The notes below the pieces were generated by a model, which had not been told where the DNA came from, did no database searches, and saw only the letters and a list, made by a program, of their open reading frames with translations. A stretch of 64,000 nt of DNA. Source: Desulfurobacterium thermolithotrophum DSM 11699. Lineage in GTDB: Bacteria; Aquificota; Aquificia; Desulfurobacteriales; Desulfurobacteriaceae. The DNA lies in NCBI RefSeq assembly GCF_000191045.1, contig NC_015185.1:626501-690500 (forward strand). The letters are read 5' to 3'. Below are positions 34,110 through 44,729 of the stretch, piece after piece. A program made the position numbers and the translations under genes. The first letter of the stretch is position 1. Every line of letters starts with the position of its first letter.

Positions 34110-34985
34110 ATGGCAAAATTAGATAAGACTTTTTTGATTTCTTTTTTTGTTTCTCTATTACTTCATATCCCCTTTCTCTATTTTGATTTTCATGTTCCAT
34201 CACAAAAAGTTAAAAAAGAAAATATTGTAACTCTTGATTTTTCTATATCTTCTACTGAATCTATGAAAAATAAAAGTGAAAACAAGCAGAAAAAAGAAAG
34301 AAAACAAGCTAGAAAAAATTATCCTAAAAAAGTAAAGTCTGTAAAAAAGAAAATAAGAAAAAAGGTAGAGAAAAAGATAGTTAAAAAGATAAAGCAACCA
34401 ACAAGAAAAGAAAAGAAGATATCTAAGGAGATAATTGAGAAAAAAAATGAAATAGCAAAGGTAAAGAAAACAGAAAAAACACAAGTTCCAAAGACTTTGG
34501 AATCTATGAAACAAAATCACATCCAAAAAACAGAAAAAAGTCAGAAAAAAGAACAGGTAGATAGCTTTTCAAGAAAAGATTTTTTTGTGTCTAAAAAAAC
34601 AGAAAATAAACAAACCTTTTACAAAGAGCATGTTTTTACAAAATCTTTCACATTATCTTCTGTAAATAAATCGTTATCCTTAAGTAGAAAGAAAGAGTTT
34701 GATAAATGTAAGTACATAGGACTAATTATTGAGGAGATAGAAAAAAAGAAATTCTATCCTCGTTTAGCAAAAAGATTTGGTATAGAAGGAAAGGTTATTC
34801 TGAAGATTGTGATTGACAGAAAGGGCAACTTAGAAAGTGTTAGTATAGTTAAAACAAGTGGAAGCAAAGTTCTTGACAAAGCGGCTTTAAAACTTATAAA
34901 AAAGTGTAAATTTCCTCCTCTTCCACCCGAATACAAAAAGGATGATTTTGAAGTTGAAATTCCAATAAGGTATGAGCTTCGATAA
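34110..34985 (+). CDS. tonB: TonB energy-transducing protein
   Basis: TonB couples inner-membrane proton-motive force to outer-membrane receptors. The 291-residue protein has an N-terminal anchor (residues 8-26), a long highly basic linker rich in Lys and Glu (about 40-165) where many TonB proteins are Pro-rich, and a clear TonB_C domain at the end (FYPRLAKRFGIEGKVILKI; LDKAALKLIKKCKFPPLPPE; VEIPIRYEL). ExbB and ExbD are not adjacent. It may serve the receptor encoded at 40682. Its stop overlaps a possible upstream extension of aspS, which I do not use. Confidence 0.88.
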   Translation: MAKLDKTFLISFFVSLLLHIPFLYFDFHVPSQKVKKENIVTLDFSISSTESMKNKSENKQKKERKQARKNYPKKVKSVKKKIRKKVEKKIVKKIKQPTRKEKKISKEIIEKKNEIAKVKKTEKTQVPKTLESMKQNHIQKTEKSQKKEQVDSFSRKDFFVSKKTENKQTFYKEHVFTKSFTLSSVNKSLSLSRKKEFDKCKYIGLIIEEIEKKKFYPRLAKRFGIEGKVILKIVIDRKGNLESVSIVKTSGSKVLDKAALKLIKKCKFPPLPPEYKKDDFEVEIPIRYELR

Positions 34986-39257: not shown

Positions 39258-40643
39258 TTGAGAAAGGAACTTCTTAAAAGAATTCCTAAAGTTGACGTTT
39301 TTGTTGAGGATAAGGAACTCTTAGAACTTTTGGGAAATAATCCAAGGACTTTGCTTGTTGAATCTATAAGAAACGTTCTTGATAGATTAAGGAAAGATAT
39401 AGTTAACGGAAAGGTTTTAGAATTAGATAAAGAAAAGATAAAAGGGCAAATTAAAAATGAATTAAGGAAATTAGTTTCTCCTAAGCTTAAAAGAGTTATT
39501 AATGCTACAGGAGTTGTTCTTCATACGAACTTAGGTAGAGCTCCTATCTCAGAAAAGATAGCAGAGCACTTAAAGTGGATAATAACAGGTTATTCAAATC
39601 TTGAATATGATCTTGAAAAAGGCAAAAGAGGACTGCGATATAAGAACTTAGAATGGATACTGAAAAAGCTAACAGGTGCTGAAGATGTCTGTGTAGTTAA
39701 TAATAACGCTGGTGCAGTTCTTTTAGTTCTTTCGGCTCTTGCTAAAGGAAAAGAGGTGGTAGTATCAAGAGGAGAACTCATTGAAATAGGCGGTTCTTTT
39801 AGAATTCCTGATGTTATGGTTCAAAGCGGAGCAATTTTAAAAGAAGTAGGAACAACAAACAAAACTCATCTTTGGGACTATGAAAATGCAATAAACGAAA
39901 ATACTGGATTAATCTTAAAAGTTCATACAAGCAATTATAGAGTTTTGGGATTTACAGAATCTGTTTCAACGAAGGAGCTTGTAGAACTTGGAAAAAAGTA
40001 CAACATTCCAGTTTATGAAGACTTAGGTAGCGGAAGTTTTATTGATGTTAGGAAGTTGGGACTTTCGTACGAACCGACTGTTCAGGACGTCTTAAAAGCT
40101 GGAGCTGATGTTGTCTCTTTTAGTGGAGATAAACTCCTTGGAGGAGCCCAAGCAGGAATAATAGTTGGAAAGAAAGAATTTATAGAGAAGATAAAAAAGC
40201 ATCCTCTTAATAGAGCTCTAAGAATAGACAAAATGACTCTTTCTGTTCTTGAGGCAACTCTTGTTTATTATCTTGATGAAGAGAAAGCTTTGAAAGAAAT
40301 ACCAACGTGGAATCTTCTTTCTCAACCGTTAGAAAATATAAAAAGAAAAGCTGAAAAGCTTTATTCACTTTTAGACAGAGAAAAAATTAAGGCAGAAATA
40401 AAAATAGTTAAAGATGAATCGGAAGTTGGCGGTGGAGCTTTGCCTATTCAAAAACTTCCGACCTATGCAGTAGCAATAAAGCCTTCAAAAATTTCAGTAA
40501 AACGACTTGAAAGTTTGATGAGAGAAATGGAAGTTCCAGTTGTAGGAAGAATAAAGGAAAATGTATATTTGCTTGATATGAGGACGGTATTTGATAATGA
40601 AATAAAACAGTTAGCCTTTAATTTGAAAAAAGTGCTAATATAA
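39258..40643 (+). CDS. selA: L-seryl-tRNA(Sec) selenium transferase
   Basis: SelA converts Ser-tRNA(Sec) to Sec-tRNA(Sec) using selenophosphate. The 461-residue PLP enzyme shows RVINATGVVLHTNLGRAPIS, NNNAGAVLLVLSALAKGKEVVVSRGELIEIGGSFRIPDVM (in part), EDLGSGS and the PLP-lysine region FSGDKLLGGAQAGIIVG. Translation starts at TTG 39258 behind GAGAGGGAT. With selB at 9588 it shows selenocysteine use; the two genes are about 28 kb apart here rather than adjacent as in many bacteria. Confidence 0.95.
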   Translation: MRKELLKRIPKVDVFVEDKELLELLGNNPRTLLVESIRNVLDRLRKDIVNGKVLELDKEKIKGQIKNELRKLVSPKLKRVINATGVVLHTNLGRAPISEKIAEHLKWIITGYSNLEYDLEKGKRGLRYKNLEWILKKLTGAEDVCVVNNNAGAVLLVLSALAKGKEVVVSRGELIEIGGSFRIPDVMVQSGAILKEVGTTNKTHLWDYENAINENTGLILKVHTSNYRVLGFTESVSTKELVELGKKYNIPVYEDLGSGSFIDVRKLGLSYEPTVQDVLKAGADVVSFSGDKLLGGAQAGIIVGKKEFIEKIKKHPLNRALRIDKMTLSVLEATLVYYLDEEKALKEIPTWNLLSQPLENIKRKAEKLYSLLDREKIKAEIKIVKDESEVGGGALPIQKLPTYAVAIKPSKISVKRLESLMREMEVPVVGRIKENVYLLDMRTVFDNEIKQLAFNLKKVLI

Positions 40644-40651
40644 ACTATAAT
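40623..40651 (+). promoter_or_regulatory. probable sigma-70 promoter of the receptor/c-di-GMP operon
   Basis: TTGAAA (40623-40628), a 17-base spacer and TATAAT (40646-40651) lie 30 bases before the ATG at 40682. The -35 box is inside the end of selA. No Fur-box-like palindrome was evident around it. Confidence 0.65.
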
Positions 40652-40681
40652 TTTAAGTAATAAGTTTAAACTGGGAATACA

Positions 40682-42688
40682 ATGAAGAAATTTGTAATTA
40701 TATTTCTGTTATTAATATATCCGATACTTTTAGCTCATTCGCAGACAACCTCTTACTATCTTGTAATGAAAGAACTACAAGTTATTTCTGCAACAAAAGA
40801 GCCTGTATCGTATGATTCTATACCGCGCTTTGTAAAAATAATAACGAGAGAAGAAATAGATAAATGGCAAGCTCAAAATCTCTTTGAACTATTAAAGCAT
40901 CTTCCCGAATTTTATGTTTATAGAAGTCAAATTTTCCTAAAAGCCATAGGAGCTTTTGGTGTTAAACAAAGCTATTTTTCTGAAAAAGTACAAGTTTTTA
41001 TAGACGGAGTACCTCTTACAGATCCTTCTAACGGTTCCTCTTTTAGCACAAATCAAAATATATCTCTCAATAACGTTAAACGAGTTGAAATAGTTTATGG
41101 ACCTATGACTTCTCTTTATGGAGTAAATTCTTGTTTAGCAGTAATAAATTTAATTACTTATAATGCTGAAGATGTTAAAAACTTAAAAGTAGGAACGGTA
41201 GTAAATACAGACTTTTCTAATGATAGCTATTTCATAAAGTCTTTTAAAAAGGGAAAACTATCGGGAATTTTTTCTCTTAACTATAGAGAAGATAGAGGTC
41301 CCCATGAATTCTACGTGGACTGGACAGGAAGAAGCTCTAATTTGTCAGCTTACTTTAAACATCTTACCTACTATCTACGATTAAAACATGATAGCGGTTT
41401 TTATCTTAATTTCTATGGAGTTGATAGAGACAATAATTTTCCTTTGAATATTGTAGGTATTATAGTTAATGATAAGTCTTATACAAGGAGAAAGGCTTTT
41501 ATAAATCGTTTTGGATACAAAAGAGATATTGGTAAATTACATTTTGATGTTTATACGTATTTTAATTGGTTTTACATAAAAAGAGGATACAATATTTGTC
41601 TTGTAGATATATGTTCTCAGTTTTTCCTTGATAGTCTTTATGCCGTAGAAGAAAGAGCTATAAGGAATCCAGGAATCGGTACTTTTATCACTTATAATAC
41701 TAGCTTTGGAAAGATTTCAGGAGGAACAGACTTAAATGTTGTTCAACTTTACAAAACAAATCTTTCTGCAAACTTTATTCCTTCTTCTTTAAGTTTTGAT
41801 ATTAGCAAGATAAAGGTTATTCCTTTTCAAAAACTTCCTTCTTCAGATATCTTAATGGATAGAGTGAGTAGAACAATAATATCTCCTTATTTACAGTACC
41901 AGTTTATTAAGAAAACTTATAGTTTTCTTTTAAATTTTAGGTTAGATAAACTCAACGATGTAGGAAATGCAAAAACGGCTTCTTTTTCTTTTCGTTACAA
42001 ACTATCTGATATTTGGACATTTAAACTAAATACTGGTCGTGCTGTTAGAGCTCCCTCATTTGAAGAAATGTACATAAAAAATAATCCAATTCTTCAGGGA
42101 AATCGTAATTTAGATTTTGAAAAAGTTGATTCTTTTATGCCTTCTGTTGAATATCGTGGAGAAACTTTATCTGGAAGTTTATTAATCTACTTAAATCGAT
42201 TTAAAGATATGATCTACAAGCAAACATTAGTAGCTGGAACTCAACAATGGAAAAATTATGAACATCCTGTACTTGTAAAAGGTATTATTTTTTCTTTACG
42301 TAAAAGGCTGAGTAATTTTGAAATTTACGGAGGATTTAACAAAGTATTTTCTATTACTGATATAGAAGATACAATTTTTCTTTCGTATCCTGATTGGAAA
42401 TTAAACGGTGGAATTAGTTATGAAGAAGAGAAGTTTTCTTGGGATATAAATTTTGAAGGATACTCAAGAATAAAGAAAGGAAATATAAAAGAAGTTCCAG
42501 GTTACGGACTTGTCAACTTTAGTTTCCTCTTAAAACCAAAAAGTTCTTTGAAATTGGCTTTTAAAGTTAATAATCTACTTGATAAAAAAGTTATATATCC
42601 TTTTTACAAAACTTTAGCTCCAAGCAATTTAGAAGGAATGATAGGAGAAGGACGAAACCTATGGGTAGGATTAGAAGTTTCCTTCTAG
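40682..42688 (+). CDS. TonB-dependent outer-membrane receptor
   Basis: A 668-residue receptor. A signal peptide (KKFVIIFLLLIYPILLAHS) is followed by a TonB-box-like ELQVISATK, a plug domain (about 45-165; ELLKHLPEFYVY, VFIDGVPLTDP, VKRVEIVYGPMTSLYGVNSCLAVINLIT) and a beta-barrel with a C-terminal aromatic strand (RNLWVGLEVSF). Barrel motifs GRAVRAPSFEEMYI and NNLLDKKVIYPFY are typical. It is small for the family and has no N-terminal signalling (STN) domain. The end overlaps the following periplasmic-protein gene by 28 bases, so translation is coupled. The ligand is unknown. Confidence 0.88.
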   Translation: MKKFVIIFLLLIYPILLAHSQTTSYYLVMKELQVISATKEPVSYDSIPRFVKIITREEIDKWQAQNLFELLKHLPEFYVYRSQIFLKAIGAFGVKQSYFSEKVQVFIDGVPLTDPSNGSSFSTNQNISLNNVKRVEIVYGPMTSLYGVNSCLAVINLITYNAEDVKNLKVGTVVNTDFSNDSYFIKSFKKGKLSGIFSLNYREDRGPHEFYVDWTGRSSNLSAYFKHLTYYLRLKHDSGFYLNFYGVDRDNNFPLNIVGIIVNDKSYTRRKAFINRFGYKRDIGKLHFDVYTYFNWFYIKRGYNICLVDICSQFFLDSLYAVEERAIRNPGIGTFITYNTSFGKISGGTDLNVVQLYKTNLSANFIPSSLSFDISKIKVIPFQKLPSSDILMDRVSRTIISPYLQYQFIKKTYSFLLNFRLDKLNDVGNAKTASFSFRYKLSDIWTFKLNTGRAVRAPSFEEMYIKNNPILQGNRNLDFEKVDSFMPSVEYRGETLSGSLLIYLNRFKDMIYKQTLVAGTQQWKNYEHPVLVKGIIFSLRKRLSNFEIYGGFNKVFSITDIEDTIFLSYPDWKLNGGISYEEEKFSWDINFEGYSRIKKGNIKEVPGYGLVNFSFLLKPKSSLKLAFKVNNLLDKKVIYPFYKTLAPSNLEGMIGEGRNLWVGLEVSF

Positions 42689-43437
42689 TTCTTTTTTTTA
42701 TTGTATTTTCTCAGCAAGGAATGAGTCAAACAGTTTGTATTGTAGATAGTTATCAGATAAAAGAAACAAGACAAGTTGTTTCTTTTATAGAAAAAAAGTT
42801 AGAAAACTTTGTGGAAATTCCCTTTTCGGAATTTAAAAAGAGAAAACTAAAGGAATGTAGTTCTTTAATTCTTCTTGGAACTCCAGCAGTAGCAAAAGCT
42901 TTGAAAGAAAATATAAAAAAAAGGATAGTTTATAGTTTTGTTTTATTTCCTGAAGCTTTAAATCTTGAAAAGAAACAAAACTTTTTTGGTATTAGAATTA
43001 TACCTTTACCTCAAAAAACAGTAGAGTTTTTTTTTAACTACACAAAGCTAAAAAAGGAGAAGGTAGCTCTTCTTGTTAGTGATAAAACTTATGAAATTGC
43101 CAAAAATTATATTAAAAGGGATTCAATACTTAAACTCGTAAGACTAAAAAAGGATTATTTTAGTTTGGAGTATAAACTCTTAAAGTATAGATATATTTTT
43201 ATTTTTCCTGATCCTTATATTTTGAAAGTTTTAACACTTTTAAAACTACTGAACTTTGCAAAAGAAAATAAAAAAGTACTCATCACAAATCTTCCAGATT
43301 TAGGAAATTATGGAATAAACTTTATTTATGCTGTAGATCTTAAGGAGTTGTCAAAAAAAATTTTAGATTTGCTAGAAAGCAATTCTTCTGAAAGAATACT
43401 ACCATGTCCAGCGAAGGTTAAAAGATGGAGTCCATAA
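42661..43437 (+). CDS. exported periplasmic binding-like protein
   Basis: A 258-residue protein with a signal peptide (FLLVLFFIVFSQQGMSQ). The mature part (CIVDSYQIKETRQVVSFIEKKL; SLILLGTPAVAKALKENIKKRIVYSFVLFP; KKEKVALLVSDKTYEIAKNYI) resembles the ABC-type substrate-binding fold of the COG2984 group, but no ABC permease or ATPase gene is near. It starts inside the receptor gene and overlaps the diguanylate cyclase gene by 13 bases. Its likely role, by inference from position, is to pass ligand information from the outer-membrane receptor to the sensor domain of the cyclase. Confidence 0.7.
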   Translation: MGRIRSFLLVLFFIVFSQQGMSQTVCIVDSYQIKETRQVVSFIEKKLENFVEIPFSEFKKRKLKECSSLILLGTPAVAKALKENIKKRIVYSFVLFPEALNLEKKQNFFGIRIIPLPQKTVEFFFNYTKLKKEKVALLVSDKTYEIAKNYIKRDSILKLVRLKKDYFSLEYKLLKYRYIFIFPDPYILKVLTLLKLLNFAKENKKVLITNLPDLGNYGINFIYAVDLKELSKKILDLLESNSSERILPCPAKVKRWSP

Positions 43438-44681
43438 AACGCTTTTTGATAAAGCGTGCTATATTTGCTTTTATTTTATCAGGAGCAACTATATTTTTTC
43501 TTTCTACTGTTTTGATTAATAATTTCAGTTGTCTGTATGAAAAACATTTAAGATATATAACTGCTCTTGCTGGAAAAAATCTTTACGATACAACTCAAAT
43601 TTACTTTAACGATTTACTCATTAAACAAGAGCTAAAAAATATTAAATCAGAGATAAGCTCCTCTAAGGCAGTTTATTTTAGAATAAATGCTAAAAATTAT
43701 TTTTCTTCTGAAGAAGAAAATTATAAACAGTCATTTAATCTTTGTAAAAATATAACTTCAGAAAAAATCTTTTATACAACTGATGGAATCCTTGTCTGTT
43801 ATCCCATATATGAAAAATTTGCTTCTCAACTTATAACAGAAAGAAAAAGAGTAGGTATATTTGCTCTTCTATTTGATGAAAATGTTCTTAATGATATTCT
43901 TTTCCAGTGGATTCTTCAAAATATTGCACTGTTTCTAATCTTTTTAGTGTTTAGTGGTTTCCTTTTCTTTGAAATGAGTATTCGTATTCATAAAAACTTT
44001 ACCATTCTTAATAAAACAATAGTTTTTGTGGAAAATCTATTAAAGGAAGTGGAAGTTCTTTCTAATTATAAAGAAAAACTAAGAAACTATCTTAAGCAAG
44101 TTTACTTTCAGGAATTTAAACAAGTGGGGGTCCTAATAGTAGAGCTTATAGATAGGGTAATTACTTTAACAGAAAATTTGCGCCTTCAAGCAATTAGAGA
44201 TTCTCTTACTGGACTCTATAATAGAAACTATTTTAATCAATTTGCAGAAAAAGTTTTAGGATTGATTCAAAGACACAAATTCCCTTTATCTGTGGCTATG
44301 ATAGATATTGACGATTTTAAGTTCATAAATGACAACTTTGGTCATCAAAAAGGAGATGAAGTTTTGAAAACTTTAGGAACTATTGTTCTTAAATCTATAA
44401 GAAAGTCTGATCTTGCTGTAAGATTTGGAGGAGAAGAGATTCTATTAATCTTTCCCAATACTGATAAAAGAACAGCTTCTCATGTTGTTGATAGAATAAA
44501 AAAAGAATTCTACAAATTCGATTTTGGGATAGGAAAAAGTGTAACTTTTAGTGCAGGTGTAGCTAATTTTCCTGAAGATGTTAAAGAACTTCAATCCTTA
44601 GATGAATTGATTAAAATAGCTGATAGAAGACTTTATATAGCAAAAAGAACAGGAAAAAATAAGATAGTTATAGAGGGATAG
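43425..44681 (+). CDS. membrane-bound diguanylate cyclase (GGDEF protein, GGEEI variant)
   Basis: A 418-residue sensor. Membrane helix 1 (about 12-32), a periplasmic sensor region (33-155), membrane helix 2 (about 163-185), a coiled linker, then a GGDEF domain (about 250-418): DSLTGLYNRNYF, DIDDFKFINDNFGHQKGDEVL, and VRFGGEEILLIFP. The signature is GGEEI rather than GGEEF; the acidic residues needed for catalysis remain. An RKSD (RxxD) inhibitory site sits five residues before it. It should make c-di-GMP under control of the periplasmic domain, probably through the protein encoded just upstream. Confidence 0.85.
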   Translation: MESIKRFLIKRAIFAFILSGATIFFLSTVLINNFSCLYEKHLRYITALAGKNLYDTTQIYFNDLLIKQELKNIKSEISSSKAVYFRINAKNYFSSEEENYKQSFNLCKNITSEKIFYTTDGILVCYPIYEKFASQLITERKRVGIFALLFDENVLNDILFQWILQNIALFLIFLVFSGFLFFEMSIRIHKNFTILNKTIVFVENLLKEVEVLSNYKEKLRNYLKQVYFQEFKQVGVLIVELIDRVITLTENLRLQAIRDSLTGLYNRNYFNQFAEKVLGLIQRHKFPLSVAMIDIDDFKFINDNFGHQKGDEVLKTLGTIVLKSIRKSDLAVRFGGEEILLIFPNTDKRTASHVVDRIKKEFYKFDFGIGKSVTFSAGVANFPEDVKELQSLDELIKIADRRLYIAKRTGKNKIVIEG

Positions 44682-44699: not shown

Positions 44700-44729
44700 G
44701 AAAGAAGGGGAGATTCTATCCCCTCTTTA
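44700..44729. terminator. bidirectional terminator between the diguanylate cyclase and LysM genes
   Basis: AGGGGA and TCCCCT arms within AAAGAAGGGGAGATTC/TATCCCCTCTTT form a hairpin flanked by A-rich and T-rich runs on either side, between two convergent genes. Confidence 0.7.

Follow-up and report, generated by a model that had tools for sequence, protein, structure and literature searches.

The window analysed here is a stretch of 64,000 nucleotides at positions 626501-690500 of the 1,541,968-bp contig of Desulfurobacterium thermolithotrophum. Strain BSA-T of this species is a cultured, motile, flagellated, sulfur-reducing vent bacterium with a complete genome (PMC3368423). The genes of a TonB-dependent receptor, an exported periplasmic binding-fold protein, and a membrane diguanylate cyclase, hereafter the triad, follow each other behind selA (Table 1). 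Their order on the plus strand and their overlaps of 28 bp (receptor/binding protein) and 13 bp (binding protein/cyclase), as described in an earlier note on this DNA, were confirmed by the ORF coordinates. The same note had remarked on the lack of a nearby ABC transporter, and the ORFs from 34 to 50 kb of the window included no such gene.

Table 1. Features of the triad and its surroundings, in window coordinates.
Feature	Position	Strand	Remarks
TonB-family protein gene (TonB_C)	34110-34985	+	ends at the aspS start, some 6 kb before the triad
selA	39258-40643	+	directly upstream of the triad
Sigma-70-like TTGAAA-17-TATAAT match	40623-40651	+	overlaps the end of selA
TonB-dependent receptor gene	40682-42688	+	668 aa
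Ribosome-binding-like GGAGAAGG and ATG of the binding-protein gene	42644-42663	+	inside the last codons of the receptor
Exported periplasmic binding-fold protein gene	42661-43437	+	258 aa
Membrane diguanylate cyclase gene	43425-44681	+	418 aa
Periplasmic sensor part of the cyclase	43530-43904	+	residues about 36-160; single Cache/PAS-like model
GGDEF domain	44190-44663	+	residues 256-413; GGEEI signature, RKSD inhibitory site
RxxD (RKSD) inhibitory site	44400-44411	+	five residues upstream of the signature
GC-rich inverted repeat, terminator-like on both strands	44705-44725		separates the cyclase gene from the convergent LysM gene

The ATG of the binding-protein gene lies within the terminal Leu-Trp codons of the receptor, with a GGAG-like element upstream. 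The overlap between these two genes amounted to 28 bp in 16 out of 16 measurable loci, and it stayed constant despite protein identities to the window's as low as 35-43%. The overlap between the binding-protein and cyclase genes was variable with 13, 16, 29, 4, or 1 bp (16 bp in the relative L024), and the sole exception was locus L033 with a 1-bp gap. A terminator-like hairpin of 11 pairs with a T-run behind it was also observed at 42667-42692, in the receptor/binding-protein overlap of the window. An attenuator role for this hairpin was rejected, as the T-run is absent in relatives.

According to the earlier note, the three genes stand behind one promoter. While a TTGAAA-17-TATAAT match is present at the end of selA, it has no counterpart in the loci of relatives, and promoter-like sites were no commoner than in shuffled sequence (21 vs 25.4), so that the claim of one promoter was not borne out. 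The receptor genes of many relatives directly adjoin or overlap selA and have no site of the TTGAAA-TATAAT type; their starts lie 0-40 bp from the selA stop or overlap it. Since the match is absent and the receptor start is this close to selA, the transcript of the triad probably starts further upstream in many species. selA, a neighbour that the earlier note passed over, stands immediately before the triad wherever the triad occurs, though the genes flanking the block vary between genera, and it is probably co-transcribed with the three genes. It does not belong to the unit that is inherited as all or none and was kept in 5 out of 5 family genomes without the triad. A selenium-related function of the triad, hinted at by selA, is unsupported because selA survives where the triad is absent.

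Both domains of the receptor, PF07715 (Plug) and PF00593 (TonB_dep_Rec_b-barrel), scored above the Pfam cut-off, in agreement with the earlier assignment of the first gene to the TonB-dependent receptors. The plug begins at residue 46, and no Pfam match to an STN signalling domain was found in the receptor. The cysteine pair C306 and C311 is invariant among relatives and probably located in an extracellular loop. Conserved cysteines occurred in all three extracytoplasmic parts of the triad, namely this receptor pair, the nearly invariant C26/C66/C249 of the binding protein, and C107/C125 of the cyclase sensor; disulfides or a thiophilic ligand are possible reasons. The TonB-family protein encoded upstream is a possible energiser of the receptor. 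In one draft genome (G122, L021 1866-2148), the receptor gene is broken by one TAG into two ORFs, through either an assembly error or decay.

The second protein had been described as exported and of binding fold, which was supported by a signal peptide and a two-lobed type-I model. The AlphaFold model (pLDDT 88.9) consists of two alpha/beta lobes, and its best PDB matches were 3lft, which has L-Trp, 3lkv, and 6hni/6hnj, the substrate-binding protein CD0873, with E values of 5e-8 to 1e-6 and TM scores of up to 0.65. These three we take to be members of the PF04392 (ABC_sub_bind) family, and the predicted fold of the binding protein resembles that of PF04392 substrate-binding proteins. The sequence itself had no significant Pfam match, with no match to SBP_bac (PotD-type) and none to PF04392 even at E 10, and PF04392 was not matched anywhere in the D. 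thermolithotrophum genome. In the type-I binding fold, ligands sit just after the C-terminal ends of strands. Within six residues after these strand ends, 19 of the 31 invariant residues were found, compared with 73 of 234 positions (p = 2e-4), which places the invariant residues of the model at the expected positions of a predicted ligand cleft. The signal peptides of many relatives end in AxA-like sites and lack a lipobox; judged from these peptides, the binding protein should therefore be soluble in the periplasm.

A PDB sequence search with the profile of the binding protein returned chance matches only, and a further match in its own genome (C1:218477, E 0.04, one stop) was likewise taken as chance. 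Across 84,980 genomes, no match was obtained with the single binding-protein sequence and only Desulfurobacteriaceae were recovered with the alignment, both scans using two strict peptide patterns that are blind to distant relatives. Profile comparison with the PF04392 proteins of Aquificaceae was not significant. Plasmid records held no true relative of either binding protein studied, and the TonB receptors retrieved from them were only of B12 type or unrelated.

The cyclase contains two hydrophobic helices around about 125 periplasmic residues, close to the roughly 120-residue sensor noted earlier. Its catalytic set is intact in all 16 relatives aligned, comprising GGEE(I/V/F), metal-binding aspartates of the DIDDF type, and the RxxD site. 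By these residues, the protein is predicted to be an active GGDEF enzyme with an inhibitory site. No EAL domain was found in the cyclase by Pfam, GGDEF being its only output domain. The model of the sensor shows one Cache/PAS-like domain between two long helices, and its structural matches to WalK, chemoreceptor domains, and LuxQ were weak. The sensor evolves fast, with a pairwise identity of 0.32 vs 0.59 for the GGDEF domain. The whole genome encodes 11 GGDEF domains and 4 PilZ matches.

Searches over 136 Aquificota genomes, 22 of them Desulfurobacteriaceae, returned the binding protein, the sensor region of the cyclase, and the orthologous full-length receptor in an identical set of 17 genomes, all belonging to this family. 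A failure of the three families to co-occur had been named in the earlier note as a refuting result; with all three genes in 17 of the 22 family genomes and none of them in the other 5, the proposal was not refuted. Gene order behind selA was constant in the neighbourhoods examined, save where draft contigs break. The genes before selA differed between genera (a nuoN-like gene, a fumarase subunit, or a 157-aa protein), as did those after the cyclase (LysM/RND genes, a Der-like GTPase, or others). In the genome G134, exactly the three triad genes are missing from an otherwise collinear locus, with selA joined to the downstream genes, and G134 is nested among triad carriers on the selA tree (99/94 support). 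The remaining four genomes without the triad form a single clade on that tree. Only two independent changes on the tree underlie this pattern; strong as it is, it is not replicated many times over.

Because the three genes have been retained or lost as a set, it is probable that they make up a single relay, by which the capture of a molecule is turned into an internal signal. Alternatively, three unrelated genes may merely travel in a compact operon behind selA, as compact genomes retain neighbours by drift, the carriers have selA directly in front of the block, and many gene starts abut or overlap it. Such a passenger arrangement is unlikely, and we give it very little weight. The block remained constant while both of its flanks changed, exactly three genes were lost in G134 with selA kept, and the same three roles recur together in an operon of G072 (see below).

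Whether partners evolve together was assessed by the partial correlation of pairwise distances among 11 taxa, with selA distances removed and p obtained by permutation. Distances of the binding protein and the receptor co-varied (partial r = 0.46, p = 0.0025), and the two halves of the cyclase, used as positive control, gave r = 0.34 (p = 0.016). No co-variation was found between the binding protein and the cyclase sensor (r = 0.01, p = 0.47), a weak negative result given the 11 taxa and the nearly saturated sensor. Sequence distances thus support a common ligand of receptor and binding protein, and docking of the binding protein on the cyclase, which would be the last step of the relay, is what we infer.

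The main rival to the relay builds on this difference. Here, receptor and binding protein would be an uptake pair feeding a permease encoded elsewhere, and the cyclase would sense the same or a related ligand by its own Cache domain, with only expression being shared. Co-variation indeed joins the binding protein to the receptor and not to the sensor, domains of the Cache-like type usually bind their ligand directly, the model of the sensor is similar to chemoreceptor domains that bind ligands, and the family name of PF04392 marks its members elsewhere as transport proteins. However, no ABC transporter gene lies near the operon in the window, no uptake pair was left behind when the three genes were lost together in G134, and the relative of the binding protein in G072 adjoins a membrane sensor rather than a permease. 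We regard this rival as rather doubtful.

Outside the family, the only clear match of the binding-protein profile among the 136 Aquificota genomes was located on contig C159 of G072 (E 1.7e-5). The overlapping genes of this operon (L151 4613-10112) encode a PF04392-like protein, a membrane histidine kinase, an NtrC-type sigma-54 regulator, and a TonB receptor, and the binding-protein gene overlaps that of the membrane histidine kinase. The G072 protein scored 25.9 bits with the binding-protein profile and 38.4 bits with PF04392, a curated match, and by matching both it provides a sequence link between the binding protein of the window and PF04392. As the search was made with the binding protein alone, the adjacent TonB receptor and membrane sensor are independent support for the three-part logic, and the module seems to recur in G072 with a swapped output. 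The G072 assembly is 9% contaminated, which leaves the host lineage of this contig uncertain.

In the sister family, a PF04392 protein is encoded beside a large GGDEF protein, which itself follows a FIST protein. This order of FIST protein, 600-aa GGDEF protein, and PF04392 protein was found at L152 3156-9363 and L154 435-4361, and only L152 encodes an HD-domain protein (HD-GYP-like, HD/GGDEF) next after the PF04392 protein. This cluster again ties a PF04392-type binding protein to c-di-GMP. We tentatively propose, at somewhat less than even chances, a hitherto undescribed class of envelope signalling module in which a TonB receptor supplies a small binding protein of PF04392-like type, and this protein in turn gates a membrane sensor. 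Its output would be exchangeable, a cyclase in Desulfurobacteriaceae and a histidine kinase with a sigma-54 regulator on the G072 contig, and outer-membrane import would be wired to signalling rather than to an ABC importer.

We consider it rather likely that the triad is a single solute-sensing unit, in which a signal passes from the receptor through the binding protein to the cyclase. The receptor would import a scarce ligand across the outer membrane, energised by TonB, and the binding protein would capture it in the periplasm. As a partner permease is missing from the vicinity, the main client of the binding protein would be the adjoining cyclase, on whose Cache-like periplasmic domain it would dock and thereby alter the c-di-GMP output. 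RxxD would give product inhibition, and the PilZ proteins would read the c-di-GMP. The case is a computational one, made up of the structure of the genes, their predicted protein folds, a cyclase with its key residues intact, inheritance as all or none, the invariant overlap, and a second operon of like logic; from it we infer that a ligand is imported and bound, that the binding protein docks on the cyclase, and in which direction control acts. The relay of the earlier note was partly supported by the co-occurrence, the clean loss in G134, and the second operon, while its link from binding protein to cyclase sensor found no counterpart in co-variation.

Few inputs of diguanylate cyclases are known. 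If true, the relay would couple c-di-GMP, and probably the motile/sessile decision, directly to the energy-driven uptake of a scarce solute in deep-sea vent autotrophs. The Desulfurobacteriaceae supply a natural deletion of the whole unit.

A receptor/binding-protein/cyclase operon was not found described in the mostly open-access literature searched, the earlier note having known of none either, and a 2022 census of c-di-GMP sensing makes no mention of TonB receptors, nor of NspS by name (PMC8846402). Similar clusters may have gone without comment in other phyla. Among known systems, YfiBNR of Pseudomonas aeruginosa likewise has a single cluster that encodes one part for the outer membrane, one for the periplasm, and a cyclase in the inner membrane. 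Its YfiB resembles Pal and its YfiR is a small repressor, whereas neither family matches in the triad, with no Pfam match to DUF4154 (YfiR), OmpA/Pal, or HAMP; the likeness therefore holds in logic and not in sequence, as had been suggested. The control could also be reversed as in YfiR-YfiN, in which repression by YfiR is lifted by the outer-membrane partner (PMC2837407), so that the apo binding protein would repress the cyclase until ligand delivered by the receptor releases it. The three compartments are the same, and a DgcN/YfiN model gave a sub-threshold match over the length of the cyclase, but the YfiBNR families are lacking, and the conserved cleft, while speaking for a state that depends on ligand, gives no sign. 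This reversal appears improbable to us.

The proposed relay of the triad also shares features with other signalling and binding proteins. TonB-dependent transducers of the FecA-FecIR type tie a TonB receptor to a signalling output, whereas the triad has no STN domain and no adjoining sigma/anti-sigma gene, and its output is a cyclase. LuxP-LuxQ pairs a type-I binding protein with a Cache/PAS-type membrane receptor, and the two models had LuxP (binding protein) and LuxQ (sensor) among their weaker structural matches; LuxQ, however, is a histidine kinase without a TonB receptor, while the triad has a cyclase with one. The PF04392 proteins 3lft, 3lkv, and CD0873 share the fold, with the sequence link running through the L151 protein, but the window protein has no Pfam match, is shorter, and has no ABC permease nearby.

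The closest precedent, closer than YfiBNR, is NspS-MbaA of Vibrio cholerae and Sinorhizobium meliloti. In both systems, the gene of a periplasmic binding protein stands just before, and overlaps, that of a membrane c-di-GMP enzyme, and gene overlaps of the NspS-MbaA type measure 13 bp in Pseudomonas and 16 bp in Vibrio (PMC9993111), compared with 13 bp in the window and 16 bp in L024. The binding protein of NspS-MbaA signals and does not transport, which is the role proposed in the triad. NspS is PotD/PotF-like and binds polyamines, whereas the triad protein has a PF04392-like type-I fold, and MbaA carries GGDEF and EAL, whereas the triad cyclase carries GGDEF alone. A TonB receptor was not described for NspS-MbaA in the literature searched, while the triad has one. 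Cyclases activated by binding proteins are known (PMC9602780, PMC8967002; reviewed in PMC9602780), and the novelty of the triad lies not in this gating but in the added TonB receptor and the different family of the binding protein.
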